64,000 bases of DNA, from the NCBI GenBank assembly GCA_030432235.1, contig JAUIHT010000006.1:62001-126000 (forward strand), given 5' to 3'. Positions within the stretch are counted from its first letter, which is position 1, and the number at the start of each line of letters is the position of its first letter. This document shows positions 4,536 to 56,041 of this stretch, in pieces. Made by a program: the position numbers and the translations under genes. The stretch comes from Verrucomicrobiia bacterium. GTDB lineage: Bacteria > Verrucomicrobiota > Verrucomicrobiia > Opitutales > Cerasicoccaceae. Under the pieces are notes generated by a model. It was not told the origin of the DNA and did not search any database. It worked only from the letters and a program-made list of their open reading frames with translations.

Positions 4536-5354
4536 TTAGCCGAGAGCTTTATTTCGCAAAGCCAGTGGCTGGCGTCCGGTTTCCGAACGAAAGGCGCGAT
4601 AAAAGTTGGAAAGATCGGAAAAACCGCACTCGAAGGCGATAGCAGTCACACTGCGTTCGGTATGCTCAAGCAAGTGACAAGCATGGTGGATGCGTAATCG
4701 ACGCAAATGATTCAACCAGGAATCTCCGGTCTCCTCTCGGAATAGCTGGGAAAACCGACGCTCCCCCAATCCGGCCTCCCGTGCGCTCTCCGCCAGACTT
4801 GTCTGCCTGTAAAAATCGTGCTCCATGCGCTCGATGCACTGACGAATACGTTCGCGCGCACTGGGTCGACGTTCCGGGCTCGCGCTGTTTCGCGAAATCC
4901 CAGTCAACATCCAGAGTACGATCCCCAGAATACTCAGGCTACGATCCGCGCGTTGCATGGTCTGCTCATACAGCAGGCGACGAAAGCGCTCGTGCCACTG
5001 CAGTTCATTCCCCGCTAATCGGGCAAAGGTCAACGGCAGATGCTCAATCTGTTCCGAGACAGACTGTGGCAAAGAATCCGTGGTCAGACAAACCGCATAG
5101 AGTGACAGAGGCTTTCCCGGCTTATCGATAATGCGATGCGAAAAACCCAATGGGATGTATACCAGTGTACTTCGCTCCAGCTGCCAGGATTGCCGCTCAC
5201 AGATCAGGTCTCCTGCCCCATCAACAACAAACAACATTTTCACAAAATCGTGCCGCATCGTCTCCATCTGAAAGGCCGCGGCATGATGACTTTCAAAAGC
5301 ATAGACGCCGAAATCGGGGAAATGAACCGGGGCTGGACTGGTACGCTCTTGCAT
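4536..5354 (-). CDS. AraC-family regulator with cupin sensor domain
   Basis: 272 aa. The N-terminal half is a cupin-like sugar/ligand-sensing domain (VYIPLGFSHRI, residues ~70-80). The C-terminal ~100 aa carries the two AraC helix-turn-helix motifs (SLAESAREAGLGERRFSQLF and SVTAIAFECGFSDLSNFYRA). The gene diverges from the FAD oxidoreductase gene across a 103-base intergenic region, so it is the obvious candidate activator of the 5.4-12.4 kb catabolic cluster. Its effector is presumably a substrate or intermediate of that pathway (inference). Confidence 0.92.
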   Translation of the reverse strand: MQERTSPAPVHFPDFGVYAFESHHAAAFQMETMRHDFVKMLFVVDGAGDLICERQSWQLERSTLVYIPLGFSHRIIDKPGKPLSLYAVCLTTDSLPQSVSEQIEHLPLTFARLAGNELQWHERFRRLLYEQTMQRADRSLSILGIVLWMLTGISRNSASPERRPSARERIRQCIERMEHDFYRQTSLAESAREAGLGERRFSQLFREETGDSWLNHLRRLRIHHACHLLEHTERSVTAIAFECGFSDLSNFYRAFRSETGRQPLALRNKALG

Positions 5355-5457: not shown

Positions 5458-6786
5458 ATGGATGCCAGGACCCATATAAAGAAAACAGCCGATGTGCTTG
5501 TAGTTGGCGGCGGCTCCGCCGGATTGGCCGCTGCGGTGACAGCCGCACGTCGGGGCCTAAGCGTCATCCTGCTTGAACGCTACGGGTTCTGCGGTGGTGG
5601 TGCTGTCGCGGGTCTATCAGGGACTATTTGCGGAATTTACGAGGCTGATGAAAATGAAACACGTCCACCCCGTCAGCTTGTTTACGGCTTCCTCGAGGAA
5701 TTCAAGCAACGGCTCGATGTCCTTGGAGGCCTTGCTCGCCCGGTGCTTTACGGCAAGACCTACACACACGTTCATGATCCGATCCGCTGGCGCGAGGCAG
5801 CAGATTCCTTTATCAAGGAGAGTGGGGTCGAAGTCATTTATCACGCCGTCGTCCACGATGTACTGACCGAAGGCGGCGAAGCCATAGACGGCGTCATTGC
5901 CTGGACAAAGGAAGGTCCACTGGAAGTACGCGCCAAAATAACAATCGATGCCAGCGGAGACGCCGACCTCCTCGCCATGGCGGGCCTGCCATCCTTCATC
6001 GGCGACGAGGGCAAGGTGCAGAATCCCACCATGATTTTCCGCCTACAAAACGTCGACACGGAAATCTTCTGGAAGACCTATGGCCCAAACTCAATCATGA
6101 GCCCACAGGTCGGGCAGATGATTCACGATTGCCACGAGGCAGGTACGCACTACCTGCCTCGTCAAAAAATATTTCTCTTTCCAGGCAAGCACCCCGGCGA
6201 AGTCCTTTGCAACTGCACACGTGTCATCGGCAACGACGAAAGAGAACTGAACCCCCTTAACATGCGGGACTTCACCGAGGCCGAAATGGAGGGACGTCAC
6301 CAGGTACGAGAGTACGAGAGATTCTTTCACGATCATCTAAAGGGCTTTAGTAAAGCCTACGTCGCGGACACCGGCGTCCAGGTCGGCGTGCGCCAAACCC
6401 GTCAGGGCGAGGGCATCCATAAGCTGAAAAACAGTGATGTTGTTTCGGGTACGAAGTTCACAGACGGCGTCGCGCGCTCGGCCTGGCCCATCGAGTTGCA
6501 CAGCGGTACCAAACCACGCGTGGAATGGCTCTTCAACGACTTTTACGAAATCCCCTACGGCTGCTTCGTCCCCTCACGCGGTGAAAATCTGCTCTTTGCC
6601 GGTCGCTGCCTCTCTGCCGAGCACGAGGCCGTGGCCTCGGCACGCGTCACCGCACAGTGCTTTTCCTACGGGCATGCCATAGGCCATGCCGCCGCACTCT
6701 GCCTCAAACACGGGCTCCAACCGCGTGAGTTAAATGGCCGCGCCGTGCGTGAATGCCTCAACCAGGACAACGCTCGTCTCGATTAA
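5458..6786 (+). CDS. FAD-dependent oxidoreductase (FAD_oxidored / PF12831 type)
   Basis: 442 aa, no signal peptide. The N-terminus has a Rossmann dinucleotide-binding motif (VLVVGGGSAGLAAAVTAARR, residues 14-33) and the LLERYGFCGGGAVAG segment typical of the FAD_oxidored family. The family's internal ITIDASGDADLLAMAG and C-terminal ENLLFAGRCLSAEHEAVASA motifs are also present. The family includes dehydrogenases of unknown substrate often found in catabolic clusters. First gene of the cluster, opposite the AraC gene; the next gene starts five bases after its stop. It probably oxidises the incoming substrate, but nothing in the sequence names that substrate. Confidence 0.88.
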   Translation: MDARTHIKKTADVLVVGGGSAGLAAAVTAARRGLSVILLERYGFCGGGAVAGLSGTICGIYEADENETRPPRQLVYGFLEEFKQRLDVLGGLARPVLYGKTYTHVHDPIRWREAADSFIKESGVEVIYHAVVHDVLTEGGEAIDGVIAWTKEGPLEVRAKITIDASGDADLLAMAGLPSFIGDEGKVQNPTMIFRLQNVDTEIFWKTYGPNSIMSPQVGQMIHDCHEAGTHYLPRQKIFLFPGKHPGEVLCNCTRVIGNDERELNPLNMRDFTEAEMEGRHQVREYERFFHDHLKGFSKAYVADTGVQVGVRQTRQGEGIHKLKNSDVVSGTKFTDGVARSAWPIELHSGTKPRVEWLFNDFYEIPYGCFVPSRGENLLFAGRCLSAEHEAVASARVTAQCFSYGHAIGHAAALCLKHGLQPRELNGRAVRECLNQDNARLD

Positions 6787-6791
6787 TCGCC

Positions 6792-7541
6792 ATGCTCATT
6801 GAAAAGAATATCCGCGATGATATCGCGCTGCTGACCCTTAATCGCCCCGAGCGCCGTAATGCACTAGGGACGGCTATGATGACCGAGCTGGCAGGCCACC
6901 TGGTCAATGTCACTAAGGATAGTACGATACGCGCCATCGTATTAAGTGGCAGCGATGATGCCTTCTCCGCCGGAAGCGACTTAAAGGAGCTGGCCGAGCT
7001 GGATACTGCAGGCATGGCAGAGCACGAAGCCGGAACCGCAGCGGTCGTTCGAAAACTCATGACCTGCCCGCTCCCTGTCATTGCGGCAGTCGAGGGTTAT
7101 GCACTAGGCGGAGGCTGTGCCCTGGCCATGGCTTGCGACATCGTCGTAGCCTCGGAAAGCGCACGCATGGCTATGCCGGAGGTAGCTAACGGCTGGATTC
7201 CGCCTTGGGGCCTGATGGCAATCCGCCGCCGCTGTACCGACATTCAGGCACGGCAATTTATTTGGGGCGCAGAAGCATGTGATGTACAAGAGCTGGTAGC
7301 CAAAGGCTTAGTCGATAAAGCATGTGCTCCGGGTACAGCCGTCGACACTGCACTCTCCATAGCCGATAAGCTGGCCCAGCTACCACCCGCTTCCGTCGCC
7401 AGCACAAAACGCTTTTTTGCCGACGCTGCACAAGCTGAGTCTGACGACGCACGCAGCAGTCAGATGTTTAAGGAAAACGGCATCACTGAAGCAGCACAGG
7501 TCACCTTTGAAAAATTCTCCAGGAAAGGAATCGCCAAATGA
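6792..7541 (+). CDS. Enoyl-CoA hydratase/isomerase (crotonase) family enzyme
   Basis: 249 aa from the ATG at 6792, chosen because it starts right at the first crotonase strand (MLIEKNIRDDIALLTLNRPE). Oxyanion-hole segments are present (AFSAGSDLKEL near 58-68; GYALGGGCALAMACD near 102-116). In classical enoyl-CoA hydratases the two catalytic glutamates lie in GGGCELA and PEV. Here the first is alanine (A110) and only the second (E130) is kept, with the usual 20-residue spacing, so simple hydration by the two-Glu mechanism is doubtful. Isomerase, hydrolase or hydratase/lyase chemistry should be considered. The stop overlaps the next start (ATGA), implying translational coupling to the CoA-transferase. 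Confidence 0.88.
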   Translation: MLIEKNIRDDIALLTLNRPERRNALGTAMMTELAGHLVNVTKDSTIRAIVLSGSDDAFSAGSDLKELAELDTAGMAEHEAGTAAVVRKLMTCPLPVIAAVEGYALGGGCALAMACDIVVASESARMAMPEVANGWIPPWGLMAIRRRCTDIQARQFIWGAEACDVQELVAKGLVDKACAPGTAVDTALSIADKLAQLPPASVASTKRFFADAAQAESDDARSSQMFKENGITEAAQVTFEKFSRKGIAK

Positions 7542-9106
7542 AAAAACTCTGCTCCGCGTCTGAAGCTGTCCAATGCGTTACCAGCAACAGCACCATTGCC
7601 TCCCCTGGGGTTATTGGCTGGACCGTACCCGATGCCTTGCTGCGTGCCTTGGGAGAACGCTTCGAAACGGAGCAGACCCCACAGGGGCTGACCTTTTTCT
7701 TCCCTACCGGCGGCGGCGACGCCTTTGAAGTACGCGGCATGGATCATGTCGCCAAAGCCGGCTTGATGAAGCGCATCGTCTCGGGAAACTACGTCAATAC
7801 CCGTGACCCCGCTACCGGAGAGCGCCCCAAGCTCATGCAGCTCATCCAGAGCAACGCCATTGAGGCCTACAGCTGGCCCATTGGCGCAGGTGTGCATTGG
7901 CTGAGGGAGGTCACACGTGGCAGCCCCGGTTACCTGACCAAGGTGGGGCTCGGGTGCTACATCGACCCGCGCAACCGTGGTGGCAAATTCACGGATAAAT
8001 GCCAGGACGATCTTGTCCGACTGGTGAACTTCGAAGGCAAGGACTATTTGTTTTACCCAAGCTGGAAACTCGATTTCGGCTTTATCCGGGCGAGCTCGGC
8101 GGACGAAAACGGCAATCTTTCCTTCGAAGACGAACCCCTCATCTCCACCCATATCGCCACCGCACTCGCAGTTAAAGCCTGCGGCGGCACTGTCATCGCA
8201 CAGGTCAAACGGATCGTGAAAAAACACAGCCGCCTGGCCTGCGACTCACGCATTCCCGCCTCACTGGTGGACAAGGTCGTGGTGGCCGAGGACGCGCCAA
8301 TGACCACCGGCACACCTTTCGATGCTGCTTACCTCGGCAAGCAACGCCGCACCCCGGCTGATCTGCCAAAAATCCCCATGAGTTCGGACAAGGTAATCGC
8401 CCGCCGTGGTGCGCTGGAGGTACGTAAGCATGAACTGAGCATTTTTGGCTTCGGCGCCTCGTCTGACATCCCGCTGGTCATGGCCGAACAGGGCCTCTTT
8501 GACGGCGATGCCATTGACGATTACTGGTTCACCACCGAACACGGCCCGCATGGCGGTATCGTCATGAGCGCATGGCAGTTTTCTGCAAACGTCAATCCTG
8601 ACGCGCTCTTGGACGGCGTCACGCAGTTCGACCTCATCGACGGCGGCCTGTGCAAATTCACCGCGCTCTCTTTTGCCCAGATGGATGCGCGGGGGGTGGT
8701 CAACGTGAGTAAGTTCGGTAACGCCAACCCCGGCGCGGGAGGTTTCATCGATATCGCTCACCACGCTCAGCGCCTCATCTTCACTGGCACCTTTACCACT
8801 GGCGGGCTTAAGGTCGACTTCGAAGGTGGCCGGCTTAACATCCGCCATGAGGGCAAGGTCAAAAAGCTCACCCGGGAAGCCGAAGACATCACCTACCCCG
8901 TCATCGAAGGGGTGCAAGAACGCGGGCAGAAAGCCCTGCTCATCACCGAACGTGCTGTCTTCAAAATCTGTGCCGACGGATATGAGCTCATTGAAATCGC
9001 CCCCGGAGTCGACCTACAACGCGATGTACTTGAGCAGATGGAGTTCGTACCCGTGCGCATTGCCGATCCACTCCCACATATGCCCACCCAACTATTTCTT
9101 CCTTAG
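7538..9106 (+). CDS. Fused alpha/beta CoA-transferase (YdiF/SCOT-like)
   Basis: 522 aa, the size of a single-chain CoA-transferase with both halves fused. The N-terminal half has the glycine-rich CoA-binding region (TFFFPTGGGDAFEVRGMDH) and the domain linker around residues 260-290. The catalytic glutamate lies in the TTEHGPHGG motif (Glu334), matching the family pattern TxExGPxGG. It would move CoA from an acyl-CoA donor such as acetyl-CoA to a carboxylic-acid intermediate. It overlaps the crotonase gene by 4 bases; the two very likely act in sequence. The acceptor acid is unknown. Confidence 0.9.
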   Translation: MKKLCSASEAVQCVTSNSTIASPGVIGWTVPDALLRALGERFETEQTPQGLTFFFPTGGGDAFEVRGMDHVAKAGLMKRIVSGNYVNTRDPATGERPKLMQLIQSNAIEAYSWPIGAGVHWLREVTRGSPGYLTKVGLGCYIDPRNRGGKFTDKCQDDLVRLVNFEGKDYLFYPSWKLDFGFIRASSADENGNLSFEDEPLISTHIATALAVKACGGTVIAQVKRIVKKHSRLACDSRIPASLVDKVVVAEDAPMTTGTPFDAAYLGKQRRTPADLPKIPMSSDKVIARRGALEVRKHELSIFGFGASSDIPLVMAEQGLFDGDAIDDYWFTTEHGPHGGIVMSAWQFSANVNPDALLDGVTQFDLIDGGLCKFTALSFAQMDARGVVNVSKFGNANPGAGGFIDIAHHAQRLIFTGTFTTGGLKVDFEGGRLNIRHEGKVKKLTREAEDITYPVIEGVQERGQKALLITERAVFKICADGYELIEIAPGVDLQRDVLEQMEFVPVRIADPLPHMPTQLFLP

Positions 9107-9114
9107 CTTTTCGT

Positions 9115-10170
9115 ATGTACTCCACCCTTTCAGACCTGCCGAACTCAGTACGCTCGTTGCTCGCTGAGGGCACTGTCATCCCGGCCCACCCCTTGGTGCT
9201 GGATGCGGATAAGCAACTTGACGAACGCCGCCAGCGGGCAGTCACACGCTACTACCTCGATGCCGGTGCCGGCGGGCTGGCCGTCGGTGTACACACCACA
9301 CAGTTTGCCATCCGTACACATGGACTTTACGAGCCGGTGCTTGCCTTAGCGTCCGAAGAAGCGCGTACCTGGACTAACCGTCCTCTGGTGCTTGTCGCCG
9401 GGGTAGCGGGTAAAATCGAACAAGCTCTGGCTGAAACAGAAGTGGCCCAGCGACACGGCTACCACTTCGCCATGGTGAATGTATCGGCCTACGCCACCGA
9501 CTCCGAAGACGTCATTCTGGAACATTGCAAACGTATCGCTGAAGTCATGCCCATCATCGGCTTCTACCTGCTGCCCGAGTGCGGCGGGCGTTTCCTCTCC
9601 TGCAACTTCTGGCGCGAGCTTTGTCTGCTGGACAACATCGCCGCGATTAAGATGGCTCCCTTCAACCGCTACCAGACTCTTGATGTGGTCAAAGGACTTG
9701 TGGCAGCGCAGGCGGAAAACCGCGTCACGCTCTACACCGGCAACGACGATCACATCGTACTCGATCTCGTCGCACCGTTTATTGCCTCACGAGACGGTCA
9801 GCGGGTGGAAGTACGTATCCAAGGCGGGCTGCTGGGACACTGGAGCGTATGGGTCAAGCCCGCCGTAGAACTCTTCGAACGTATACGACGGGAGCGCTCC
9901 TGCCCCACCCCGGAATTGCTTGCGCTAGACTCCATCGTGACCGACTGCAATGCCGCCGTCTATGACGCCCGGCATAAGCTCCGTGGTTGCATCCCCGGCT
10001 GCCTGGAGGTCTTACGCCGCCAGGGCCTAGTCGAACACGGTCACTGTCTCAACCCAAATGAAGTTCTGAGCCCCGGACAAAGCGAAGAGATCAACCGTAT
10101 TTACGAGCAATTTCCTGAATTCACCGACGACGCCTTCGTCGCCAAAAACCTGGAACGTTGGCTAACCTAG
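9115..10170 (+). CDS. DHDPS/NAL-superfamily aldolase or lyase
   Basis: 351 aa, about 50 residues longer than dihydrodipicolinate synthase. The Schiff-base lysine is in NIAAIKMAPF (K179) and the catalytic tyrosine is in IGFYLLPECGG (Y151), with the 28-residue spacing seen in the superfamily. The TGND segment after strand 7 is also present. The YNxP motif of true DapA is altered (YLLPEC), so lysine biosynthesis is unlikely. Within this cluster a retro-aldol cleavage or hydratase-aldolase step on a 2-oxo acid is the reasonable inference. Starts 8 bases after the CoA-transferase stop. Confidence 0.87.
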   Translation: MYSTLSDLPNSVRSLLAEGTVIPAHPLVLDADKQLDERRQRAVTRYYLDAGAGGLAVGVHTTQFAIRTHGLYEPVLALASEEARTWTNRPLVLVAGVAGKIEQALAETEVAQRHGYHFAMVNVSAYATDSEDVILEHCKRIAEVMPIIGFYLLPECGGRFLSCNFWRELCLLDNIAAIKMAPFNRYQTLDVVKGLVAAQAENRVTLYTGNDDHIVLDLVAPFIASRDGQRVEVRIQGGLLGHWSVWVKPAVELFERIRRERSCPTPELLALDSIVTDCNAAVYDARHKLRGCIPGCLEVLRRQGLVEHGHCLNPNEVLSPGQSEEINRIYEQFPEFTDDAFVAKNLERWLT

Positions 10171-10179
10171 CACATCACC

Positions 10180-11241
10180 ATGACAACCGTATTGGAATCC
10201 GATAAAACGCTGCGCTTCGACGATCTGCCTGACCACTTCGAGGACGTGCAGCATCTCGACGAGTTTATGTCGCGCCCAACCCAGGCCACCGTCGATGTGC
10301 TCCAAAAAGTCGACGGCGACATCATCGTGCTGGGTGTCGGGGGTAAAATGGGTATTGGTCTCGCCCGGTTGATCAAACGTGCCTGCCCGGACAAGCGTGT
10401 GGTCGGCGTCTCCCGGTTCTCGGATCCAGATACCCGCGAGGAGTTGGAAACCTGTGGTGTGGAAACCATCCCCTGTGACCTTCTTGATGCCGAGGCGGTG
10501 GAAAAACTGCCCAAGCTCGAGAACGTCATCTATATGGCCGGGCTGAAGTTTGACTTCACTGGACGCGAAGAATTCCTCTGGGCGATGAATACCGTCGCGC
10601 CGGGCATCGTCGCTCAAGCCTTCAAGGATTCTCGCATCGTCTCCTTCTCAACCATCCACGTCTACCCATGGTCCAATCCACTGCTTGGCGGTGTGGACGA
10701 GCAAACCCCACCACTAGCCCGGCCAGGCGAGTACTCCAACTCGGTGGTGGGCCGCGAGCGCACTTTTCAATATTATTCAAAAAAGTACAGCACGCCGGGC
10801 AGCATAGTACGCTTTGTCTACGCCATAGATATGCGCTACGGCGTCATGCAGGAAATAGCCCAATGGGTACTCGACGAAAAGGTCATTCCACTGAGTACCG
10901 GCTCGGTAAATATCATGTGGCAAGGGGACGCGCTGAACCATTTTGCCCAGCTCCTGGCCCATTGCACCACACCTGCCTCGCCCATTAATATCGGAGGCCC
11001 CGAGTGCGTTTCCATCCGACGCCTGGCCAATGAGTTCGGGCGTATTCTCGGGAAAGATCCTCAGTTCGAAGGCGATGAAACCACCTCGCTTTTCGTCAAC
11101 TGCGACCACGCCGCTTCCCTCATGGGCTACCCGGTGGTGCCAGTAAACCGAATGATTCAGTGGGTCGCTGAATGGGTGAAAAGCGGCAAACCCACCTACG
11201 GAAAACCCAGTAAATTCCAGGTACGCACCGGTACCTTTTAA
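10180..11241 (+). CDS. NAD-dependent epimerase/dehydratase family protein (extended SDR)
   Basis: 353 aa. The Rossmann motif is displaced about 50 residues into the protein (DIIVLGVGGKMGIGLARLIK, with GxxGxxG), preceded by a 45-residue N-terminal extension. The usual YxxxK is not intact: the best positional match, GEYSNSVVGRERTF, has no lysine at +4. The catalytic role is therefore uncertain, and simple NAD-dependent dehydrogenation or a non-catalytic role are alternatives. It sits 9 bases after the aldolase gene and belongs to the same operon. Confidence 0.82.
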   Translation: MTTVLESDKTLRFDDLPDHFEDVQHLDEFMSRPTQATVDVLQKVDGDIIVLGVGGKMGIGLARLIKRACPDKRVVGVSRFSDPDTREELETCGVETIPCDLLDAEAVEKLPKLENVIYMAGLKFDFTGREEFLWAMNTVAPGIVAQAFKDSRIVSFSTIHVYPWSNPLLGGVDEQTPPLARPGEYSNSVVGRERTFQYYSKKYSTPGSIVRFVYAIDMRYGVMQEIAQWVLDEKVIPLSTGSVNIMWQGDALNHFAQLLAHCTTPASPINIGGPECVSIRRLANEFGRILGKDPQFEGDETTSLFVNCDHAASLMGYPVVPVNRMIQWVAEWVKSGKPTYGKPSKFQVRTGTF

Positions 11242-11418
11242 AACACACAGATAAGACAAGCCACGAACACAGCTATGGATGCGTATGGCCCGGCCTTACG
11301 TCGAAGACTTTCCCTCTTCCATACCTACCCACCGAAAATAGCCCGAATACACCTCTATCAGATATCAACCAAAGCAAAGAAGCAATCTGTTGCTCTTCTC
11401 ATTAACAAACAAAACCCT

Positions 11419-12435
11419 ATGCAAAAAAAAACCGACTCCCCCTCTATCCTCACCACCACAGTGGGATCGTACTCTCCCATCGACTGGCTCGCCGCTCTGC
11501 CCAGCGAGCAGGCTGTCATCGACGCTACCGAGGTTGTCATCCAGACGCAGCGCCGCTTCGGCATCGATCTGCCCACCGACGGCGAGCTTTACCGCTTCGA
11601 TGTCAACCATCCGGACACCAACGGCATGATCGAATACTTCATCGGGCGCCTCGGCGGCATCGACACCCGCGTGGGCATGAGTGACGCGCGCGCTTTTCAG
11701 CAAAAGCAGGAAATGAGCTTCCGCCGTAAACCGGCCGGCGTCGTTCGCGATGCCATCGGCGAAGGTTCACTGGATCTTTACGAAGCTTGTGCGCGCTCGG
11801 CCTCCGTCGCACAAGGCCCGCTGAAATTCACCCTCACGAGCCCATATATGCTCGCGCGCACGCTACTGGACAACCATTACGACGACCTCGAAGCGCTTTG
11901 TCTGGCCATTGGTGACGCCCTAGCCGAACAGGTCGCCGACCTGCCCTGTGCCTGTGTTCAGGTGGACGAAGCCAACGTACCTGGTAGTCCGGAAAACGCA
12001 CCCATCGCGCAAGCCGCCATCAACCGTATTCTCGACAAGGTTAAAGTGGAGAAGGCCGTGCACTTCTGCTTCGGCAACTACGGCGGCCAAACCATCCAAA
12101 AGGGCGCGTGGAAGCCGCTGGTCGATTTCCTCAACGGCCTTCATGCCGATCACCTTGTGCTTGAGCTGGCCCATCGTCCCGACAGTGACCTGGAGGCCTT
12201 GAAAGAAATTTCACCGCACATCAAACTCGGCCTCGGGGTCATCGACATTAAAGTCAATCACGTCGAAACAGCGGATGAAGTCGCCGCCCGAATTGAAAAG
12301 GCTGCGAAAGCTGTAGGCCCCGAACGCATCGGCTGGGTCCACCCGGATTGCGGCTTCTGGATGCTCAAGCGCTCCATCGTAGAACGCAAAATCGAAAACC
12401 TGGTCCTTGGCCGCGATAAGTATCTGGGCAGATAA
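11419..12435 (+). CDS. Stand-alone MetE C-terminal-domain methyltransferase-like protein
   Basis: 338 aa from the ATG at 11419; an upstream in-frame start at 11275 would add 48 low-complexity residues and is unlikely. It resembles the catalytic C-terminal barrel of cobalamin-independent methionine synthase without the N-terminal domain. The zinc ligands are all recognisable: His215 and Cys217 (VHFCFGNYGG), Glu249 (LVLELAHRPDSD) and Cys311 (VHPDCGFW). The substrate-binding QVDEANVP matches the QIDEPAL motif of MetE. So a zinc-thiolate methyl transfer, or a related thiol/C-S reaction, is chemically plausible. It lies 177 bases after the epimerase gene, perhaps with its own promoter, and is probably the last gene of the cluster. 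Confidence 0.82.
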   Translation: MQKKTDSPSILTTTVGSYSPIDWLAALPSEQAVIDATEVVIQTQRRFGIDLPTDGELYRFDVNHPDTNGMIEYFIGRLGGIDTRVGMSDARAFQQKQEMSFRRKPAGVVRDAIGEGSLDLYEACARSASVAQGPLKFTLTSPYMLARTLLDNHYDDLEALCLAIGDALAEQVADLPCACVQVDEANVPGSPENAPIAQAAINRILDKVKVEKAVHFCFGNYGGQTIQKGAWKPLVDFLNGLHADHLVLELAHRPDSDLEALKEISPHIKLGLGVIDIKVNHVETADEVAARIEKAAKAVGPERIGWVHPDCGFWMLKRSIVERKIENLVLGRDKYLGR

Positions 12436-39693: not shown

Positions 39694-40485
39694 TCAGGAA
39701 TCTTGCATCAGGGCGGAACGGCCTCCATCCACCAAGTAAGTCGTACCCGTGGCAAAGCCAGCGTAGGGACTGGCCAAGAATGCACAGAAGGCCCCCATCT
39801 CGTCAACACTACCCAAGTGCCCCACCGGGTGTAATTGTTCGGTGCGCTTGCGTTCCTGATCGGGATCCGGAAAGGAACCGAACCATTTTTTGTTCTGGCG
39901 TGTATCAATAAAACCAGGAGCTAAACCCACCGTGCGCACCCTGGGCCCCCACTCAATGGCGATACTTTGCACGAGCCCCAACAACCCCGCCTTGGTCGTG
40001 CTATACGGGAAGCAGCCCGGAATGGTTGAGTAAGCATGGTTCGACCCAATGATAATAAGCACCCCCTCGCCTTTGGCTTCGAGGTAAGGTTTCGTCAATT
40101 GAGCCAGTCGCCAATGCGAGTTGAAATTCAAATCCAGATTGGCTTGCCAATCTTCTTCGCTGCAACCCGCAACTCCCTTGAAGACGCCCGCACCAGCGTT
40201 GGACACCGCTACGTCAATGCCCTTCCACTTACTAACGGTAGCCTTGACTAGGGCATCCAGATCTTCGCGTCGCGTAACATCAGCCTGTACATAAAGGGCC
40301 TCCTGGCCTTCTGCCTCGACCAGCTCAGAGAATTTTTGAGCGCCATCACTGTCAGGACGGCTACGCCCACAGCCGGCAACAACACATCCGGCACGAGCCA
40401 TCATTTTCGCGATCCCCTGCCCTATGCCGTCAGTAACACCAGTAACAAGAGCGACTTTGTTTTGGAGATTGATTTCGAGTGACAT
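39694..40485 (-). CDS. SDR-family oxidoreductase
   Basis: 263 aa from the ATG at 40485. Classical SDR with the cofactor motif TGVTDGIGQGIA (residues ~14-25), SNAGAG, and the catalytic YSTTKAG (Tyr-x3-Lys). The C-terminal loop LVDGG is also standard. Located 10 bases after the enolase-superfamily gene in an operon that also carries a second SDR. The likely role is oxidation of a sugar or of a 2-keto-3-deoxy sugar acid, by analogy with L-fucose, L-rhamnose or galactose oxidative pathways (inference). Confidence 0.9.
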   Translation of the reverse strand: MSLEINLQNKVALVTGVTDGIGQGIAKMMARAGCVVAGCGRSRPDSDGAQKFSELVEAEGQEALYVQADVTRREDLDALVKATVSKWKGIDVAVSNAGAGVFKGVAGCSEEDWQANLDLNFNSHWRLAQLTKPYLEAKGEGVLIIIGSNHAYSTIPGCFPYSTTKAGLLGLVQSIAIEWGPRVRTVGLAPGFIDTRQNKKWFGSFPDPDQERKRTEQLHPVGHLGSVDEMGAFCAFLASPYAGFATGTTYLVDGGRSALMQDS

Positions 40486-40495
40486 GGTTTTGTGG

Positions 40496-41608
40496 CTAGG
40501 TGGCGCGATAACGTTCAATCGATTCGGGATACCAGTCGTAGTTCGCACCTTGCGCCGTAGAGGGAGCGATCAACGCGCCGGAATCCCAAGTTAAGCTGTC
40601 CGGGTGCAACGGATGAAAGTCCTCAATGTCGCTCTCCGGCAGCATGGTTTCGAGCCAGCGAACCGCCGGGCATGCCGCCGCCAGCTGTGCATGCAACGGA
40701 TGGAACACATGGCAGGCGATCGGAATCCCGGCCGCGTGAGCTTTGGCCGCGATCTTCATAAAGGCTCGCACCCCACCGCATACAGTGGCATCGAGACGCA
40801 GCACCTGCAGGCCTGTCCGCAATAACCGTTCAAAAGCACGCAGTCCGCTCTGCTCGTCCCCGACGGCAACCGGAAAGCCCAATGCTTCCACCAACTGCTT
40901 GATTCCGGAATAGTCGTCGAAAGCGAGCGGATCCTCTATCCAGCCCATATTGAAATCCTGCCACTTGCGGGCTTCCGCCACAACGTCCTTGGCAGAGTCA
41001 AAGCTCCAGTAGCAGTCAATCATAAGAGGGATATCCTCAGGCAACCGCTCCCGGCAGGCTTTCAAGCGTACCGTGTCGCGCCTGAGGTCGGCTGAGCTGG
41101 CTATCTTCACGCCCGCCGGCGCATACTTGGCGTAAGTGTTCATTTCAGCCTGAAGCGACTCCGGGGTTTCGTCCGTGGTCGGATACCCACCCACGATAGT
41201 GGCAGGGACCGCACGCCTGGAGCCTCCCAGATAATCGCCGAGCGATTGCCCGGCCGAACGCGCCAATAGATCGTACAACGCACAATCAACCAGGCTCAGG
41301 GCGCGCCAGAACAAGCCATGAGTGCCCAGACACACATTTGCCTTCACACACTTGGCATAATGGGCCTCGTGTAACTCCAAGGGCTGCCCTTCCCAGAAGG
41401 GTGCCACGCAGCGCTCCACCACGGCCGCCACCGGCGCGGAGCGGGCGTGCCCCAGGGCCGTACCGACATGGCCCTCGCTATCCGTCAGACGAACGAATAC
41501 ATACTCACGCTCACTTATGCGCATCTCACCCAACCGCAACGGGCGCCCCAACGGCACACGCAGGTGAAAGGCTTCGACTGAGATGAGGGTACGGGGCATT
41601 GGATTCAA
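40496..41608 (-). CDS. Enolase-superfamily (mandelate racemase type) sugar-acid dehydratase-like protein
   Basis: 370 aa. N-terminal capping domain (FHLRVPLGRPLRLGEMRISE), then the barrel with the base-bearing motif AGVKIASSAD, metal ligands LMIDCYW (Asp), WIEDPLAF (Glu) and AVGDEQSG, and the catalytic His in ACHVFHPLHAQL. This pattern fits the mandelate-racemase subgroup, many of which dehydrate aldonic acids (fuconate, galactonate, rhamnonate). Exact substrate unknown. It lies between two SDR genes with 3- and 10-base gaps, so the three enzymes very likely act in one pathway. Confidence 0.9.
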   Translation of the reverse strand: MNPMPRTLISVEAFHLRVPLGRPLRLGEMRISEREYVFVRLTDSEGHVGTALGHARSAPVAAVVERCVAPFWEGQPLELHEAHYAKCVKANVCLGTHGLFWRALSLVDCALYDLLARSAGQSLGDYLGGSRRAVPATIVGGYPTTDETPESLQAEMNTYAKYAPAGVKIASSADLRRDTVRLKACRERLPEDIPLMIDCYWSFDSAKDVVAEARKWQDFNMGWIEDPLAFDDYSGIKQLVEALGFPVAVGDEQSGLRAFERLLRTGLQVLRLDATVCGGVRAFMKIAAKAHAAGIPIACHVFHPLHAQLAAACPAVRWLETMLPESDIEDFHPLHPDSLTWDSGALIAPSTAQGANYDWYPESIERYRAT

Positions 41609-41611
41609 ACA

Positions 41612-42409
41612 CTAAAGAGCCAGGGCATCCGGGGCACCATAGACAGTGTAGCCACCATCGACCATGATCGCCTGACCGGTAATATAAGTGGCCAGCGGTG
41701 AACAGAGCATCGTCACGGCATTACCGATATCGTCAGGGTTACCCATGCGGCCCATGGGGATTCTTCCTCGTATGACTTCCGGATCGAGGACACCCTTGGC
41801 GACATACTCCTTGAAAAGGCGCGTCTCATGATAGCCGGGGCAAACCGCGTTCACGCGGATGTTATGCCTTCCCCACTCCGTGGCCAAAGCGCGGGTCATA
41901 CCCACTACAGCCGTTTTCGTGGTTACATAGACGGAGCGTCGAGGCATACCAAAGAAGCTGGAGATACTGCCGATATTGATAATGGAGCCGTCCTCTTGCT
42001 TGGCCATTTGACGGGCGGCCAGCTTGGAAAAGAACAGCATGCTATGCACATTGACATCGAACACGCGCATCCAGCCGGCCTCATCCATCTCCATGGCATC
42101 TGCATGGTATTGGATTCCGGCATTGTTCACCAGAATGTGCAGCCCACCCGCGTTTTCTACGATCCTGCCTATCGCAACCTGACGATCCGCATCACTGGTA
42201 GCGTCACCGTGGATACCGACATGGCCTTCTCCGGGCAACGATGCCGCAGCCTGATGGACGAGCTCTGCGTCGCGGTCGAAAATAAAGACCCGCGCGCCAA
42301 AACCCGCCAGCTTTGTGGCTGCGGCGTAACCGAGCCCTTGAGCGGCGCCGGTCACCAAGGCTGTTTTCCCGGCGAGCCAGGAGGATAAAGGTTGGTCCAT
42401 TGGATTCAT
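41612..42409 (-). CDS. SDR-family oxidoreductase
   Basis: 265 aa. Cofactor site TGAAQGLGYAAA, NNAGIQYH and catalytic YVTTKTAVVG. The C-terminal VDGGYTVYGAPDAL is typical of sugar or gluconate dehydrogenases of this family. Followed after 3 bases by the enolase-superfamily gene. Possible roles: dehydrogenase for the free sugar at the start of an oxidative route, or for a later keto-acid. Confidence 0.9.
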   Translation of the reverse strand: MNPMDQPLSSWLAGKTALVTGAAQGLGYAAATKLAGFGARVFIFDRDAELVHQAAASLPGEGHVGIHGDATSDADRQVAIGRIVENAGGLHILVNNAGIQYHADAMEMDEAGWMRVFDVNVHSMLFFSKLAARQMAKQEDGSIINIGSISSFFGMPRRSVYVTTKTAVVGMTRALATEWGRHNIRVNAVCPGYHETRLFKEYVAKGVLDPEVIRGRIPMGRMGNPDDIGNAVTMLCSPLATYITGQAIMVDGGYTVYGAPDALAL

Positions 42410-42419
42410 TTAAAGCTTT

Positions 42420-43352
42420 TCAAATAATAGCGACACCATGTTCCCGCAGATAATCGAGATAGCCCACGAGCGCGTATTGATAGTGCGCCCTTTCAGACTC
42501 GTCCCAGCAGGCAAAGGTATCGTTCATACCGTCGAGCAACTGCTCGAAACTCATCGAGCCTGCGGGCCCCTCCAACAGCCAAGCCAGATCACGCGCCACA
42601 ACTGCATGCGATTCCCGTATCAATTGCCTCAGGCCATCCGCATTCAAGGGCTCCCAATGCGCAAAGTATGCCTGCTCCACGGGAAGCTGCGCAAGGAATT
42701 GAAGCGTGGAAAGATACTCACGGATAAACTGGTGCGTGGGCGGCATCGACGCTGCGCCCTTAACATCGGGCGGCCCATAACCAAGCACAGCATCGCCACC
42801 TATCAGGACGCGCTCTTTCTCCTGCCATAAGCCGATGTGGCCTGGACTGTGGCCCGGCAAGTGTAATACCCTCCACGACTTTCCACCAATAGCCAGCGAA
42901 GATCCGGCAGCCACCGTCCGCGTTACGCGAAAATCATCACCGCATGCCGTGCGCATCGCCTCCCGCACTTCCTCGGGGTAAGCAAAACCATACTCTGCCC
43001 GCGCACAGCCATAACGTTCAGCCACCAGTTGATCGTGGTTTTCACACCAGGCACGGTCCAGTTCATGACAGATAACTTCGCAATCCCGAAAGGACTCTTT
43101 GGCCTCCGCCACGCCGCCGATATGATCAGCGTCCGCATGGGTAATCACGATGCCATCAACGTGCCCGGGCAAATCGTCGCCCTCAAGGATCTCATTCAAG
43201 TGGCCGCACAAACCACCATCAATCAACACCCAGCCCTTGTCTCCATTGGGTAAAGCAAAGACGCGTACAGTACGGATTCCCATGCCGAAGACAAACTCAC
43301 GAAGGCCGCCCGCATGCTCCTCAAGGCGATAGTTTGGTTGCCTCTTAGACAT
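42420..43352 (-). CDS. Metallo-beta-lactamase-fold hydrolase
   Basis: 310 aa from the ATG at 43352, which overlaps the end of the upstream gene by 8 bases. The metal-binding motif reads ITHADADHIGG, that is HxDxDH instead of the usual HxHxDH. The other MBL elements are intact: LPGHSPGHIGLW, LIGGDAVLGYG and YFAHWEPL. Family members include lactonases and thioesterases; in a sugar-acid operon a lactonase role is an attractive but untested inference. The His-to-Asp change may alter metal content. Confidence 0.87.
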   Translation of the reverse strand: MSKRQPNYRLEEHAGGLREFVFGMGIRTVRVFALPNGDKGWVLIDGGLCGHLNEILEGDDLPGHVDGIVITHADADHIGGVAEAKESFRDCEVICHELDRAWCENHDQLVAERYGCARAEYGFAYPEEVREAMRTACGDDFRVTRTVAAGSSLAIGGKSWRVLHLPGHSPGHIGLWQEKERVLIGGDAVLGYGPPDVKGAASMPPTHQFIREYLSTLQFLAQLPVEQAYFAHWEPLNADGLRQLIRESHAVVARDLAWLLEGPAGSMSFEQLLDGMNDTFACWDESERAHYQYALVGYLDYLREHGVAII

Positions 43353-44508
43353 GGCACTCTCCCCGTATGGCACGCAGTTGCGCAAGGATGGATTCCTCCG
43401 TCGCTTCACCATCCCAATAGGGCTGCAAGGAGCGTCCTATTTCCAATTCGATGAAATGAAATCCGGGCACACGGGGCCGCATGTAAGCGTGCTCCATCTC
43501 TCTGCTTAAACTGGAATAAAAGCCATGGTACTGACGATCCAGAACGGCACACTCCCACGCAGCCTTGGCCGTCGGCTGTCCAGAGTTTTCCGGGAAAAGC
43601 CTGGTCTGCGCAGCATCAGAAATCAAGTAGCGCGCATATTCCACCGCCTCCTCCAAGAGAGAACATTTCTTCATAATCCCCAAGCCAACGCCACCAAGAA
43701 TCGGCGTACCCCGACGACCGTTCAGCCCGGGAGTTTCAAGCAAGCGTAACTGGGCTCCGCGTCCTTCTGCGTGGAAATAATTAACATAAGCGAAAATCGA
43801 CGGACTGTAGGCCGACTCGTCCGAGCGGCAAAAATACTCGTAGATATCCCATGGTCCCCAGTGGGTGGAGCCCGGCGGGACATACGCAAGCAACGATCTC
43901 AACAAACGCAGGACCTGCAACGTCGCGGTAGAGTCCAGGCAAAGTGCGCTGTCAACTACCGTAACGGCATGTCCCCCCGACGCCATCATGGAAAGAAACA
44001 GACAGGAGCCGAGCACACCCTCCACGCTCAATACCAGCGGATAAGGCAGGGACTCGCAGCGAACGGATTCCGCCCAGGCTGCGATGTCTTCCCAGTGCGA
44101 GGGCACGGAGTCAATCTCAGCGAGGTCCTTGCGGATGAGGCCGGCATGACAAGCGCCATCCAGAGCCAGGCCCCAGACCTTCCCATCCCAAACATAACTG
44201 TCAAACGACGGTGGAACGATACGACCGCGAATCCCCACGAGCTCCTCCTGGGTCATGAGAGAGTCCCAAGGCAACATCCCTCCGCTGCAAGCCAGTGAGC
44301 CGGTCCAGGGATGATCAAACATAACAAGGTCATAGTCGGGCCCGGGGTTCTCCAGCGCCGCCAGGAGCGCATTCTCGAATGCGTACCAGGACAAGGCCTC
44401 CCATTCGATCCTGACATCGGGGCGCCTGGTCTGCCACTCACAGGCACTGGCCAGCAGCGGCAATTCGCCACGCGGATTCTTCCAGGTTAAGCCTTTAATG
44501 ACTTTCAT
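43345..44508 (-). CDS. Extracellular-solute-binding-protein-like protein lacking a signal peptide
   Basis: 387 aa. The fold signature is that of family 1 sugar-binding proteins of ABC transporters (LVMFDHPWTGSLACSGGMLP, VWGLALDGACHAGLIRKDL, SDAAQTRLFPENSGQPTAK). The N-terminus, MKVIKGLTWKNPRGELPLLA, has no signal peptide or lipobox, and no in-frame upstream extension supplies one. No ABC permease or ATPase gene lies in the window. It is the first gene of the MBL-SDR-enolase-SDR operon and may sense or bind a sugar in the cytoplasm. A palindrome lies upstream at 44584-44601. Confidence 0.83.
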   Translation of the reverse strand: MKVIKGLTWKNPRGELPLLASACEWQTRRPDVRIEWEALSWYAFENALLAALENPGPDYDLVMFDHPWTGSLACSGGMLPWDSLMTQEELVGIRGRIVPPSFDSYVWDGKVWGLALDGACHAGLIRKDLAEIDSVPSHWEDIAAWAESVRCESLPYPLVLSVEGVLGSCLFLSMMASGGHAVTVVDSALCLDSTATLQVLRLLRSLLAYVPPGSTHWGPWDIYEYFCRSDESAYSPSIFAYVNYFHAEGRGAQLRLLETPGLNGRRGTPILGGVGLGIMKKCSLLEEAVEYARYLISDAAQTRLFPENSGQPTAKAAWECAVLDRQYHGFYSSLSREMEHAYMRPRVPGFHFIELEIGRSLQPYWDGEATEESILAQLRAIRGECHV

Positions 44509-52455: not shown

Positions 52456-53913
52456 TTATAATACCACCGCCGGAGCGGGGCATGCCACTTTTAGTCTCCG
52501 AAGACTTTTCCGAAAGCAAACGAGCATGTATTCATTTTCCTCCCAGTCGAATACTGGCTCGGATTTACGGGAGTCATCCGGAAATCTTTCCTGGTCCCAA
52601 ATGGACTCCACTATTTCCAGCCAGTCTTCATCCTGCCTGATAACACGATGCCAGCTTGCGATATCCTCAGTTTCGGAGCAGAACAAGGCTGCTCGTGAGT
52701 ATAAATGAGCCATGAATGCGCAAAACAGTTGGAGTGTTTCGAACGCCTGAACTTCTTTTTGAATAGAGGGCAAAAATGATTCAAGACGTATGGCAATCGC
52801 TGTCCACTGCTCAGCGGCTCGCTCCCAGTCCGTCCGGGGCTCCCCGTCGAAATCGGCTTTGAGAATACTAAGGTACTCTTTGCGCCTTGGCGCCAGGTAA
52901 AACGTTTGGATCAATGCGTCCACGACTTCTTGGTCTGGAGTCGCATCATGAAAACTCTTCAAGTAATTTTCTATCGCGGGACCAATGTCTAGTCTGCCAC
53001 AGGCGTTCATCACAGACGCTGCCAAGGCAACTCCAGGCCAGAGGCAATCGTGCAAATAACGCATTGGTGTCCAGATGGTTGTCAAAACCCCTTCAACCTT
53101 CCCTTTACCTTGAAGCTCTTGAAACGAACTCATTCGTTCGATATTCGGCAACGCAATATCCCCGGGATAGGCTTGTTGATCGTAGGTAATGAGCGCAGGA
53201 CATAGGATGACATTAAAGCCGTCATTCAGGAGCTTCTGGGCCAGCTCTGGAGAAACATCCGGAGAGTATTGCCACACCGCCGCCACGATATCTCGTGGAA
53301 GGTACTCCATGACGCCAGTATTGTAGCTGTTCTCATCGACCCACATGATCATCCGCCGTCCATATGCAGCGACTTCATCGTAAATAAAACGAGCGTAGTC
53401 GGCGAGCAGTTCGGCCTTGGATTGCGATTTAAGCGCTTCCCGGGTCAAGGGGTGCTGCCCCAGCTTCACTTCATCCATCCCGACATGGACCCAAGGCGAT
53501 GGGAAGATATCGACGACATCCTTGATCAGTTTCCGCATCAAGTCCCTGGTCTCAGGATGCACCGGGCATATGGCCGTGAAATCCTCATCGCATTCATTTA
53601 GATGCCGGTAGCGCGCATGCCTTGTAAGATAGCGGGAATGCCCGAGAGTCTCGAGCTCTGGAACCAAAGTAATGCCGTAACCCCGGGCATACTCAACCAA
53701 CCCCCTAGCCTCACTGGCTGAATATGCATGCGGATCGGCCAAACCCGGAACGCTTGGAAAATCCAAGCTCAGACCCTGGTCGTCCGAAAAATGCCAGACC
53801 AATGTGTTCATCCCCTGGTCCGCAATGAATCGAATAAATCGGCGATAGTATTCACGGCTCTCAAGACAACGCGCACTATCGATCATGAACCCTTTTATAC
53901 TCTCCGCCATCAT
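52456..53913 (-). CDS. Cytoplasmic GH20-type beta-N-acetylhexosaminidase
   Basis: 485 aa, no signal peptide and no N-terminal GH20b domain. It begins directly at the first barrel strand with the substrate-binding Arg in KGFMIDSAR. Next are TLVWHFSDDQGLSLDF, VPELETLGHSRY and the catalytic pair in VHVGMDEVKLG (Asp147-Glu148), where the Asp assists the N-acetyl group and the Glu is the acid/base. The missing N-terminal domain is unusual for the family but fits a compact type. Divergent from the ROK regulator across 213 bases with a shared operator. Expected substrates are terminal GlcNAc/GalNAc oligosaccharides. Confidence 0.86.
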   Translation of the reverse strand: MMAESIKGFMIDSARCLESREYYRRFIRFIADQGMNTLVWHFSDDQGLSLDFPSVPGLADPHAYSASEARGLVEYARGYGITLVPELETLGHSRYLTRHARYRHLNECDEDFTAICPVHPETRDLMRKLIKDVVDIFPSPWVHVGMDEVKLGQHPLTREALKSQSKAELLADYARFIYDEVAAYGRRMIMWVDENSYNTGVMEYLPRDIVAAVWQYSPDVSPELAQKLLNDGFNVILCPALITYDQQAYPGDIALPNIERMSSFQELQGKGKVEGVLTTIWTPMRYLHDCLWPGVALAASVMNACGRLDIGPAIENYLKSFHDATPDQEVVDALIQTFYLAPRRKEYLSILKADFDGEPRTDWERAAEQWTAIAIRLESFLPSIQKEVQAFETLQLFCAFMAHLYSRAALFCSETEDIASWHRVIRQDEDWLEIVESIWDQERFPDDSRKSEPVFDWEENEYMLVCFRKSLRRLKVACPAPAVVL

Positions 53914-53990
53914 TCTACGTTTTATCTATTCAACATTACAAAAACCAAGGTGATCACAGGCAGGAAATTCCAAGCAACCCCATCGCCATT

Positions 53991-54029
53991 TAATTCACTC
54001 AATGAAATATTAGATTCGACAACTGTCAA
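53991..54029. promoter_or_regulatory. Divergent regulatory region with ROK-type operator
   Basis: TTCACTCAATGAAATATTAG at 53994-54013; on the minus strand TTGACA lies at 54029-54024, oriented toward the GH20 gene. The palindrome is the same as in front of the PEP-CTERM gene and close to that at 55311. It lies about 113 bases before the ROK start at 54127, so autoregulation is also likely. Confidence 0.65.
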
Positions 54030-54126
54030 TAATTTGTTTTGTCTATCTGGCAAGCCATTGAACTATAGTCACAAACAGGCGCAGAGAGATACCCGAGCTT
54101 ACGAAAGACGCACAGAAATTCGAGAC

Positions 54127-55224
54127 ATGCAGATGATCGCAAAAAACAAACCGAGGAACAACCGAAAGCAATCGCAGATAGCGAACCGGCTGCGCGTCCT
54201 GCGACTCATCTACTCAACAACACCCTATTCGCAAAGGCGAATTGCACTGGAGACCGAGCTACAGGCCTCCACCGTCTCTAATATCATTTCGGAGTTTCTC
54301 AAAATAGGCATCATCGTGGAAGGTGAAAGCCTTGAGAGAAGTAAAGTGGGCCCACGGGAAACTGTCCTGCATATAAACCCGCAACGCGCCACCACGATCG
54401 GGCTCAACATCCATGCGACAACACAAGATATCTGCATTATCGGAGGTGATGGTACAATTCTCGCGGAAAAGCGCATCTCAACCAAATGGGACAGTAAAAC
54501 ACCTGCCAAACTCGCAAGCAGTATCAAGGCGCTTGTAAAAGAGACCGGGCTAGCCATGGATCAGATAAAAGGGGCCGGAATAGCTATCCCCGGAGTCGTG
54601 GACAACGAAAGCGGCGTCACCATCCTGTCCCGTGCACTGCAAGTTGAGAACTATCCCATCCGTGCGCGTATGTCCGATTTGCTGGAAATGCCCGTCATGA
54701 TCGACCGCAATGTCAATTATGGCGGTTATCTGGAGCAGTACCTCAATCCCACACTCAAACAGGAAAACACGGGCTACCTGCTCATCTCCAAAATCGATTC
54801 ACGTCGCTCCAATGATGAGTATTCCGTTGGGATGTCCCTGACCTTGAACGGTGAAATTTATCGAGGAACCAACCATGCCGCCGGAGAGCTGGATGCGGTT
54901 TTACTCCCTTCAAATGATGGTTCCGCTGCGGATGATGCCGAGCCATTTTTCTGCAAGATGGGGAATCATTTTGCTTCGGTTATCAATCTCCTCGATATCG
55001 GACACTTAATTGTTTCCTCAGAGGCTCAGACCCTGGCGGAGGAAGACTTTGGTCGCTTTTCCAAAGCCCTGCACGAATCCTTGATTCCTATCAGCCAGCG
55101 CCGCTTTCAACTCAGCCTATCTCCTTATGGTATTCGCGGTATTACCCGCGGCGCCGCTCTACACGTCCTCCACCACTGCCTGGAGGCTGAACTGGGTGAA
55201 ACCATTCTAAATCGGGGAAAATAG
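54127..55224 (+). CDS. ROK-family transcriptional regulator
   Basis: 365 aa from the ATG at 54127 (the frame is open from 53728, but there it overlaps the GH20 gene). N-terminal winged helix-turn-helix (YSQRRIALETELQASTVSNI), then a sugar-kinase-like ROK domain with GLNIHATTQDICIIGGDG, GAGIAIPGVVDNESG and NHAAGELDAV. The zinc-binding Cys cluster of ROK kinases is not visible, which fits a regulator rather than a kinase. Its effector is probably an N-acetylhexosamine-type sugar, given the GH20 neighbours. Confidence 0.9.
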   Translation: MQMIAKNKPRNNRKQSQIANRLRVLRLIYSTTPYSQRRIALETELQASTVSNIISEFLKIGIIVEGESLERSKVGPRETVLHINPQRATTIGLNIHATTQDICIIGGDGTILAEKRISTKWDSKTPAKLASSIKALVKETGLAMDQIKGAGIAIPGVVDNESGVTILSRALQVENYPIRARMSDLLEMPVMIDRNVNYGGYLEQYLNPTLKQENTGYLLISKIDSRRSNDEYSVGMSLTLNGEIYRGTNHAAGELDAVLLPSNDGSAADDAEPFFCKMGNHFASVINLLDIGHLIVSSEAQTLAEEDFGRFSKALHESLIPISQRRFQLSLSPYGIRGITRGAALHVLHHCLEAELGETILNRGK

Positions 55225-55306
55225 GAGTTAAGAAGCGATACACGCGTAGACATATCCTATTCATAGAGCGCTGGTTAACGTATCTTACAAGAGGCTGATT
55301 TGCGAA

Positions 55307-55323
55307 TTATTTCATTCAATGAA
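55307..55323. promoter_or_regulatory. TTCATTCAATGAA operator before the unanchored paralogue
   Basis: ATTATTTCATTCAATGAA; TTCATTCAATGAA spans 55311-55323, 45 bases before the start at 55368. Third copy of the palindrome found at 52282 and 53994. A good promoter is not obvious here. Confidence 0.6.
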
Positions 55324-55367
55324 GTTTTTTCTTGCAGTTAGTGCAGCTATAGACACTATTAAGAACC

Positions 55368-55991: not shown

Positions 55992-56041
55992 GTCTGTCTG
56001 CCGAATCATTTAGAAGAGCACCTACCAATAACCATTGAGCT

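Follow-up and report, generated by a model that had tools for sequence, protein, structure and literature searches.

What do the enzymes of one compact gene block in a Verrucomicrobiia bacterium do together, and on what substrate? The block lies in a stretch of 64,000 nucleotides (the window; part of contig C11 of a 5.7 Mb genome). It encodes an FAD-dependent oxidoreductase, a crotonase-family protein, a CoA-transferase, a Schiff-base lyase of the DHDPS superfamily, a short-chain dehydrogenase/reductase (SDR) and a MetE-like enzyme, with an AraC-family regulator on the opposite strand. The original prediction, made from the DNA letters, was a catabolic unit of FAD enzyme, CoA activation, crotonase and lyase. 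That idea is borne out to the extent that five of the six functions are grouped again on two actinobacterial plasmids, of Rhodococcus qingshengii and Glaciihabitans. With moderate confidence we regard the block as a substrate-induced operon that degrades one small organic acid by means of these five enzymes.

The five-gene set and its recurrence on two plasmids

Family assignments of the window's open reading frames (ORFs) are from Pfam scans, with further scoring against NCBIfam models. The six ORFs and the opposing AraC gene that had been proposed are all real, each matching its own Pfam family far above chance:

4536–5354, minus strand: AraC-family regulator, divergent from the operon (HTH_18, 2.6e-23)
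5458–6786, plus strand: FAD-dependent oxidoreductase, gene 1 of the operon (PF12831, 9.8e-119)
6792–7541, plus strand: crotonase-family protein (PF00378, 3.3e-49, scored on the longer ORF 6753–7541)
7538–9106, plus strand: type I CoA-transferase of the YdiF/propionate CoA-transferase kind (PF01144, 9.8e-21; EXGXXG at residue 334)
9115–10170, plus strand: Schiff-base lyase, a distinct subfamily of the DHDPS superfamily (PF00701, 4.2e-9; K179, Y151, T62, TGND at 208–211)
10180–11241, plus strand: extended SDR ('NAD-dependent epimerase') that lacks the lysine usual in SDRs (PF01370, 6.8e-8)
11419–12435, plus strand: MetE-like 'core' zinc methyltransferase (PF01717, 3.1e-22, scored on the long ORF)

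Genes 1 to 5 are separated by +5, −4, +8 and +9 bases, and the MetE-like gene sits 177 bases beyond the SDR gene. Two starts were originally placed probably too early. Alignment with homologues puts the crotonase start probably at 6792 rather than 6753, so that no overlap with the FAD gene is needed; the MetE-like protein probably starts at 11419 rather than 11275, since its homologues align only from residues 42–57 of the long ORF. Neither promoter (1 against 4.1) nor terminator (9 against 9.0) scans rose above shuffled sequence.

The FAD protein matches 12 of 72,556 plasmid records (E ≤ 1e-60). Seven of these were read; the other five are two further Rhizobium leguminosarum and three Cupriavidus (35–36%) records. 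Crotonase and CoA-transferase genes lie within about 20 kb of the FAD gene in five of the seven (Methylobacterium nodulans, R. leguminosarum, R. qingshengii, R. koreensis and Glaciihabitans), and an SDR–lyase pair lies near it in R. qingshengii and Glaciihabitans. R. qingshengii RQCS_2 carries, within 8.5 kb, the FAD gene and on the opposite strand genes for crotonase, CoA-transferase, LacI, MFS, SDR and DHDPS proteins. The plasmid of Glaciihabitans sp. INWT7 carries, within 12 kb, CaiB-type CoA-transferase, crotonase, FAD and LacI genes, five further genes, and then DHDPS and SDR genes. Both share the five functions with the window, the SDR being 65–70% and the lyase 57–59% identical. They differ from it in having a crotonase with both catalytic glutamates, a CaiB-type (type III) CoA-transferase and LacI plus MFS or sugar ABC genes. 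The Glaciihabitans CoA-transferase is annotated CaiB/BaiF; the R. qingshengii and R. koreensis enzymes, whose annotation is plain 'CoA transferase', are 64–65% identical to it, and none of the three matches the window CoA-transferase by blastp at 1e-5. Four families of the set therefore recur and the CoA-transferase is drawn from a different one.

Among the same plasmid records the lyase is found in 20 (1e-30) and the SDR in 23. FAD enzyme and lyase occur together in two, where 0.003 would be expected (hypergeometric P 5e-6, or 2e-4 with a pool of 5,000 records and near-copies merged); large plasmids hold more of everything and record size is outside the model, so these P values serve only as a guide. 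The recurrence in unrelated bacteria evidently came about by transfer. In actinobacteria the FAD protein, lyase and SDR were searched for in plasmids; chromosomes were reached only by the CoA-transferase scan described below, which is blind to clusters of the CaiB type.

Trees separate the shared proteins from their relatives. Window, R. qingshengii and Glaciihabitans form one clade in the SDR tree (67 members, support 100/100, apart from 64 others) and again in the lyase tree (70 members, support 100/97, apart from 67 others); the window proteins group neither with the copies of their own phylum nor with the second copy in their own genome. Twelve SDR positions are common to the three and found in none of the 64 others, counting only positions at which at least 60% of the other SDRs agree: D125, I159, H160, L179, R181, V189, F212, V213, F255, C308, K337 and S344, of which L179 falls where other SDRs have a gap. 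Several of these lie in or beside the active-site motifs of SDRs, STxxVY and YxxxK. The lyase has only three special positions, N122 (also in one other member), V123 and Y283. In our reading, the SDR may have been retuned for this pathway and the lyase hardly at all.

FAD orthologues elsewhere sit with IlvD or enolase, both hydroxy-acid dehydratases, and with carriers. IlvD is annotated near the FAD gene in three of the seven plasmid records (in R. leguminosarum as a 390-base gene) and an enolase-type gene in two, Vibrio (of the mandelate-racemase type) and M. nodulans (short); the adjoining carriers are of the MFS, TRAP, ABC or BCCT type. At 1e-95 the FAD protein was found in 4 of 398 Pseudomonadota genomes, including the Burkholderia discussed below; the other three proteins are 76–85% identical to that of Vibrio, and at two such loci (L175, L177) the ORFs after the FAD gene were read by eye as an enolase and a BCCT carrier. 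It is these contexts, together with the tight packing, the regrouping of five functions on the two plasmids, the shared SDR and lyase clades, the SDR residue set and the replacement of a type I by a type III CoA-transferase beside the same partners, that lead us to favour a single five-enzyme route.

The enzymes and a proposed route

The window FAD protein is 61–62% identical to those of M. nodulans and Ralstonia and 48–52% to those of Rhodococcus and Glaciihabitans (blastp). Its family profile found no solved relative in the PDB at 1e-10; a single-sequence search gave only weak matches to the FAD-binding start of flavocytochrome c (2.3e-5 at best). Structure prediction from four sequences gave a poor model with a mean predicted local distance difference test score (pLDDT) of 40.5. 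The nearest solved relative of the CoA-transferase is YdiF (2ahu, 5.4e-101). Its PF01144 match and E334 in EXGXXG, which we take to be the glutamate motif of type I CoA-transferases, place it with the YdiF/Pct enzymes. Enoyl-CoA hydratases use two catalytic glutamates (E144 and E164 of the rat enzyme). In alignment the window crotonase retains one (E130) and has alanine (A110) at the other position, and so lacks the hydratase pair; this first position is also alanine in three Burkholderiaceae and is isoleucine in M. nodulans and R. leguminosarum. A single glutamate would suit an isomerisation or an elimination at the alpha carbon better than a hydration.

Across 70 aligned lyases K179 and T62 are invariant and Y151 is present in 66; K179 and Y151 presumably correspond to the Schiff-base lysine and active-site tyrosine of DHDPS. 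These residues, with PF00701 over its cut-off, place the protein in the DHDPS superfamily; it scores below the NCBIfam cut-offs for N-acetylneuraminate lyase (24.1 vs 281 bits) and dapA (22.7 vs 206). Its tyrosine motif had been called unlike that of DapA, which is correct for the surrounding residues but not for the tyrosine itself. Likewise the label 'epimerase' agrees with the PF01370 score, which is over cut-off, but not with the YxxxK motif: among 67 aligned SDRs Y185 is invariant and the lysine position is occupied by Cys (63), Val (3) or Ala (1). The nearest solved relative, TerB (3.5e-12), keeps a lysine at the position taken here by Cys or Val and is thus no guide to mechanism. A single-sequence structure prediction was again poor (mean pLDDT 39.4). 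Matches to iridoid synthase and an invariant lysine prompted us to consider an enone reductase of the PRISE type, in which, according to an excerpt of PMC6172241, the lysine lies 32 residues ahead of the catalytic tyrosine (K147/Y179). We rejected this assignment, as the K123–Y185 spacing is 62; the iridoid-synthase matches also span only positions 37–134 of the 345 in the profile.

From these features the following route can be proposed. The FAD enzyme would oxidise the free acid and the type I CoA-transferase would load CoA onto the product through E334. The single-glutamate crotonase would then carry out proton chemistry at the alpha carbon: not so much a classical hydration as an isomerisation or the elimination of a leaving group. 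The SDR might adjust the oxidation state with NAD(P), after which K179 of the DHDPS-like enzyme would form a Schiff base with a 2-oxo acid and the enzyme would cleave a C–C bond, releasing pyruvate or a similar compound and an aldehyde or acyl fragment. The MetE-like enzyme would be at most accessory, for example passing a methyl group of the substrate to homocysteine. Having a lyase that requires a 2-oxo acid beside a step that requires a thioester suggests that the substrate is a hydroxy-di- or tri-carboxylic acid, or a polyhydroxy (sugar) acid. Genes neighbouring relatives of the FAD enzyme or of the SDR–lyase pair encode IlvD, enolase, Gfo/Idh, xylose-isomerase-like barrels, serine dehydratase and M20 peptidase; such neighbours speak for hydroxy or sugar acids and for amino-acid-like precursors rather than for aromatics.

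Non-phosphorylating sugar-acid pathways use a dehydratase, a 2-keto-3-deoxy acid and a DHDPS-type aldolase or C4 dehydrogenase. The window shares with them a DHDPS-fold lyase and an NAD(P)-type SDR, and IlvD or enolase genes lie near relatives of its FAD enzyme or pair; it differs in that a CoA-transferase and a crotonase occupy the place of the dehydratase. A CoA-dependent variant for hydroxy or sugar acids can be imagined, in which these two enzymes replace the IlvD/EDD- or enolase-type dehydratase between an FAD start and an end in a specialised SDR–lyase pair. Gene transfer would have assembled it repeatedly, drawing on different CoA-transferase families. We put this forward tentatively, as a possibility well short of even.

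That such a pathway has already been described, under other names or in journals beyond our search, is unlikely. Product names in the sequence records are generic, which would allow it, but full-text searches on combinations of the enzyme names gave no matching paper, subscription journals being mostly outside the search; within that scope no assigned pathway with this set was found. The 3,3'-thiodipropionate route was tried as a match and set aside, since an excerpt of PMC6370202 describes its FAD enzyme, Fox, as not directly involved.

Two halves with different relatives

When 84,980 species genomes were scanned for the CoA-transferase, seven loci were found, three of them at 60–62% identity (Burkholderia lata, Ralstonia sp. 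A12 and Paraburkholderia phenazinium). In each of these three, genes for MFS, crotonase, CoA-transferase and FAD proteins follow one another (the MFS family assigned from locus L134). The Burkholderiaceae and M. nodulans clusters resemble the window in their FAD enzyme (61–62%), CoA-transferase (60–62%) and crotonase (44–46%), and in M. nodulans the order of these genes is the same as in the window; unlike the window, an MFS gene adjoins the cluster in Burkholderiaceae, and ABC genes with a GntR gene adjoin it in M. nodulans. The Burkholderiaceae loci came as unannotated sequence. The M. nodulans record, which assigns no pathway, has a different DHDPS-family gene 4 kb from the three. The SDR gave no match at 1e-60 in 143 Burkholderia-class genomes, in a search run without a positive control.

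The window operon is thus a mosaic. Its CoA-transferase matches the proteobacterial kind only, and its crotonase is closer to proteobacterial (45–46%) than to actinobacterial ones (35%, both by blastp), whereas the nearest relatives of its SDR (65–69% by blastp, 66–70% by tblastn) and lyase (57–59% by blastp) are actinobacterial. Either the pairing was made repeatedly, or it was kept while one half was replaced.

Within the phylum the lyase family occurs in 84 of 387 genomes, own genome counted (1e-40). Sixty stretches of 9–20 kb were fetched around lyase matches, of which 59 hold the family; the other, L018, had been picked from a weak match and holds no query gene. An SDR of the family is in the same stretch at 54 of the 59 lyase loci, within about 0.5 kb in all of them but L017 (6.3 kb away). 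Neither crotonase nor CoA-transferase was matched at 1e-8 in any fetched lyase stretch, and only one stretch (L048) has an FAD match, partial and 34% identical. An FAD orthologue was found in the window's own genome only among 288 phylum genomes (1e-80), and the CoA-transferase gave just two other matches, at 38–40%, among 132 genomes of the order. The five-gene set is not conserved as a set in related genomes. Conservation of the neighbourhood, as looked for in the original prediction, therefore fails among relatives and is seen on two plasmids of another phylum; the set stands despite its absence here because unrelated bacteria share it.

The SDR–lyase pair has several other contexts. The own genome carries a second lyase, 48% identical, with its own SDR (L011; G000:C11:234325-235392, one stop codon flagged by the search in the lyase stretch). 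Aldehyde dehydrogenase and iron-type alcohol dehydrogenase genes follow (families named from L016 homologues), and a sugar-isomerase-like barrel, LacI and a sodium symporter were recognised by eye; a similar gene set is present in L016 and partly in L017. At ten loci, all from the window's order (L049, L052, L053, L055, L058, L061, L062, L064, L069 and L070), the pair has a DegT aminotransferase gene and two amidohydrolase-2 genes as neighbours (Pfam on L052 only), and at five (L014, L015, L076, L078 and L079) a serine-dehydratase-alpha gene (Pfam on L015 only). We know of no assigned pathway for either of these conserved contexts. In Tistrella and Sulfitobacter (L153, L154) the pair is interleaved with ABC transporter, GNAT and TetR genes in a different conserved cluster.

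Several observations weigh against a single five-enzyme route. The pair is common in the phylum without the FAD–crotonase–CoA-transferase half. The lyase subfamily was found in none of six genomes or records searched, those of Burkholderiaceae, M. nodulans and R. koreensis among them (1e-20; three as plasmid records only, no positive control); since all three Burkholderiaceae loci and M. nodulans carry the first half without this lyase, that half can work without it. R. koreensis has it without the pair in the stretch read, and the lyase was not found elsewhere on that plasmid. In Nonomuraea the crotonase–CoA-transferase genes and the pair are about 4.5 Mb apart, and in Glaciihabitans the halves are parted by a hydroxyacid dehydrogenase, three sugar-ABC genes and IclR. 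All three actinobacterial crotonase homologues have both glutamates, unlike the window, so the crotonase step may differ between clusters. The window's operon also contains no transporter gene.

Some of these points would also suit two independent pathways, FAD–crotonase–CoA-transferase and SDR–lyase, each for a different acid, juxtaposed by transfer with no metabolic meaning in their adjacency. Each half is found alone (in the three Burkholderiaceae and in the 54 phylum loci), the halves in the window differ in nearest relatives, and five genes part those of Glaciihabitans, one of them for a separate IclR regulator. Set against this, the combination recurs on two actinobacterial plasmids, and the SDR of exactly these three carries its own residue set. 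We therefore consider two unconnected pathways unlikely.

The MetE-like gene and the nature of the substrate

In the original prediction the MetE-like enzyme was a core step, removing a side group. This part is not supported: the gene lies beyond the 177-base gap, no relative was found on the R. qingshengii or Glaciihabitans plasmid at 1e-20 (plasmid matches being three haloarchaeal records at 26–29%), and none of the five other genes was found in the stretches of 10–20 kb around 12 other MetE-like loci. Homologues at 66–81% identity occur in these 12 other genomes of 288 from the phylum, one match being partial. AraC homologues, near full-length and 32–36% identical, lie beside two of the 12 (L123, L124), with short HTH matches near the MetE-like gene in L117 and L127. 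This fits an older AraC–MetE neighbourhood into which the five genes may have been inserted. The MetE-like gene is probably accessory or independent.

Aligned with 3rpd and plant MetE and matched by eye, the MetE-like protein has all four zinc ligands and the S/E/D homocysteine-binding residues, the serine being matched from the plant MetE alignment only. These are the residues given for core methionine synthases in an excerpt of PMC7857596, and methyl transfer to homocysteine is a candidate activity. Like the folate-domain-free Mes families described there, the protein (338 residues) is a catalytic domain only, a comparison that rests on one structure, 3rpd (a MesD); it differs in that its best NCBIfam match reaches 151.6 bits against a cut-off of 406. 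A housekeeping role as sole methionine synthase was rejected, as MetH is over cut-off in all four carriers tested. We note that the MetH of the own genome (G000:C37:127080-130699) appears as two overlapping ORFs (profile 320–1182 and 1–342), either a split gene or an assembly frameshift.

A methylated substrate (O-, S- or N-methyl), with the MetE-like enzyme as an essential demethylation step, would make use of these zinc and homocysteine residues, and MetH in the carriers leaves methionine synthesis independent of the enzyme. A MetE-like gene (83% identical) also lies about 3 kb from the SDR–lyase pair in L060, the only fetched lyase stretch to contain one, and in genome G108 one lies about 16 kb from the lyase on the same contig. 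One FAD orthologue adjoins an annotated BCCT carrier, and BCCT carriers often import betaines. The gap, the two plasmids, the 12 loci without the five genes and the AraC-type homologues that may make it an older neighbour all argue the other way, and we judge an essential demethylation improbable.

A pathway for aromatic side chains or ring cleavage, in which the lyase would serve as a hydratase-aldolase of the NahE/PhdJ kind and the crotonase would resemble feruloyl-CoA or oxepin-CoA enzymes, is very unlikely. With the model for the alternative oxepin-CoA hydrolase (cut-off 300) the crotonase reaches 158 bits, but no ring-oxygenase is found among the six genes or named in the M. nodulans, R. 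qingshengii and Glaciihabitans neighbourhoods, and SDR–lyase relatives adjoin sugar-type genes (Gfo/Idh, AP_endonuc_2, enolase, sugar ABC).

Elsewhere in the window, a minus-strand cluster at 39694–44508 encodes two short-chain dehydrogenases, a mandelate-racemase/enolase-type protein, a metallo-beta-lactamase-fold protein and a solute-binding protein; it may be a further route for sugar acids. Two GH20 family genes lie in 52456–59081, and the window is rich in glycosidases, with GH94, GH116, sialate-esterase-like and GH2 genes besides.

As a single five-enzyme route, the set would be a discrete orphan pathway that is represented in isolates, namely Rhodococcus qingshengii CS98 and Glaciihabitans sp. 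INWT7, with Ralstonia and Paraburkholderia as isolate representatives of its first half. Functions would follow for an FAD family that has no solved relative at 1e-10, for a family of SDRs that lack the motif lysine and for the DHDPS subfamily present in 84 of 387 genomes of the phylum.

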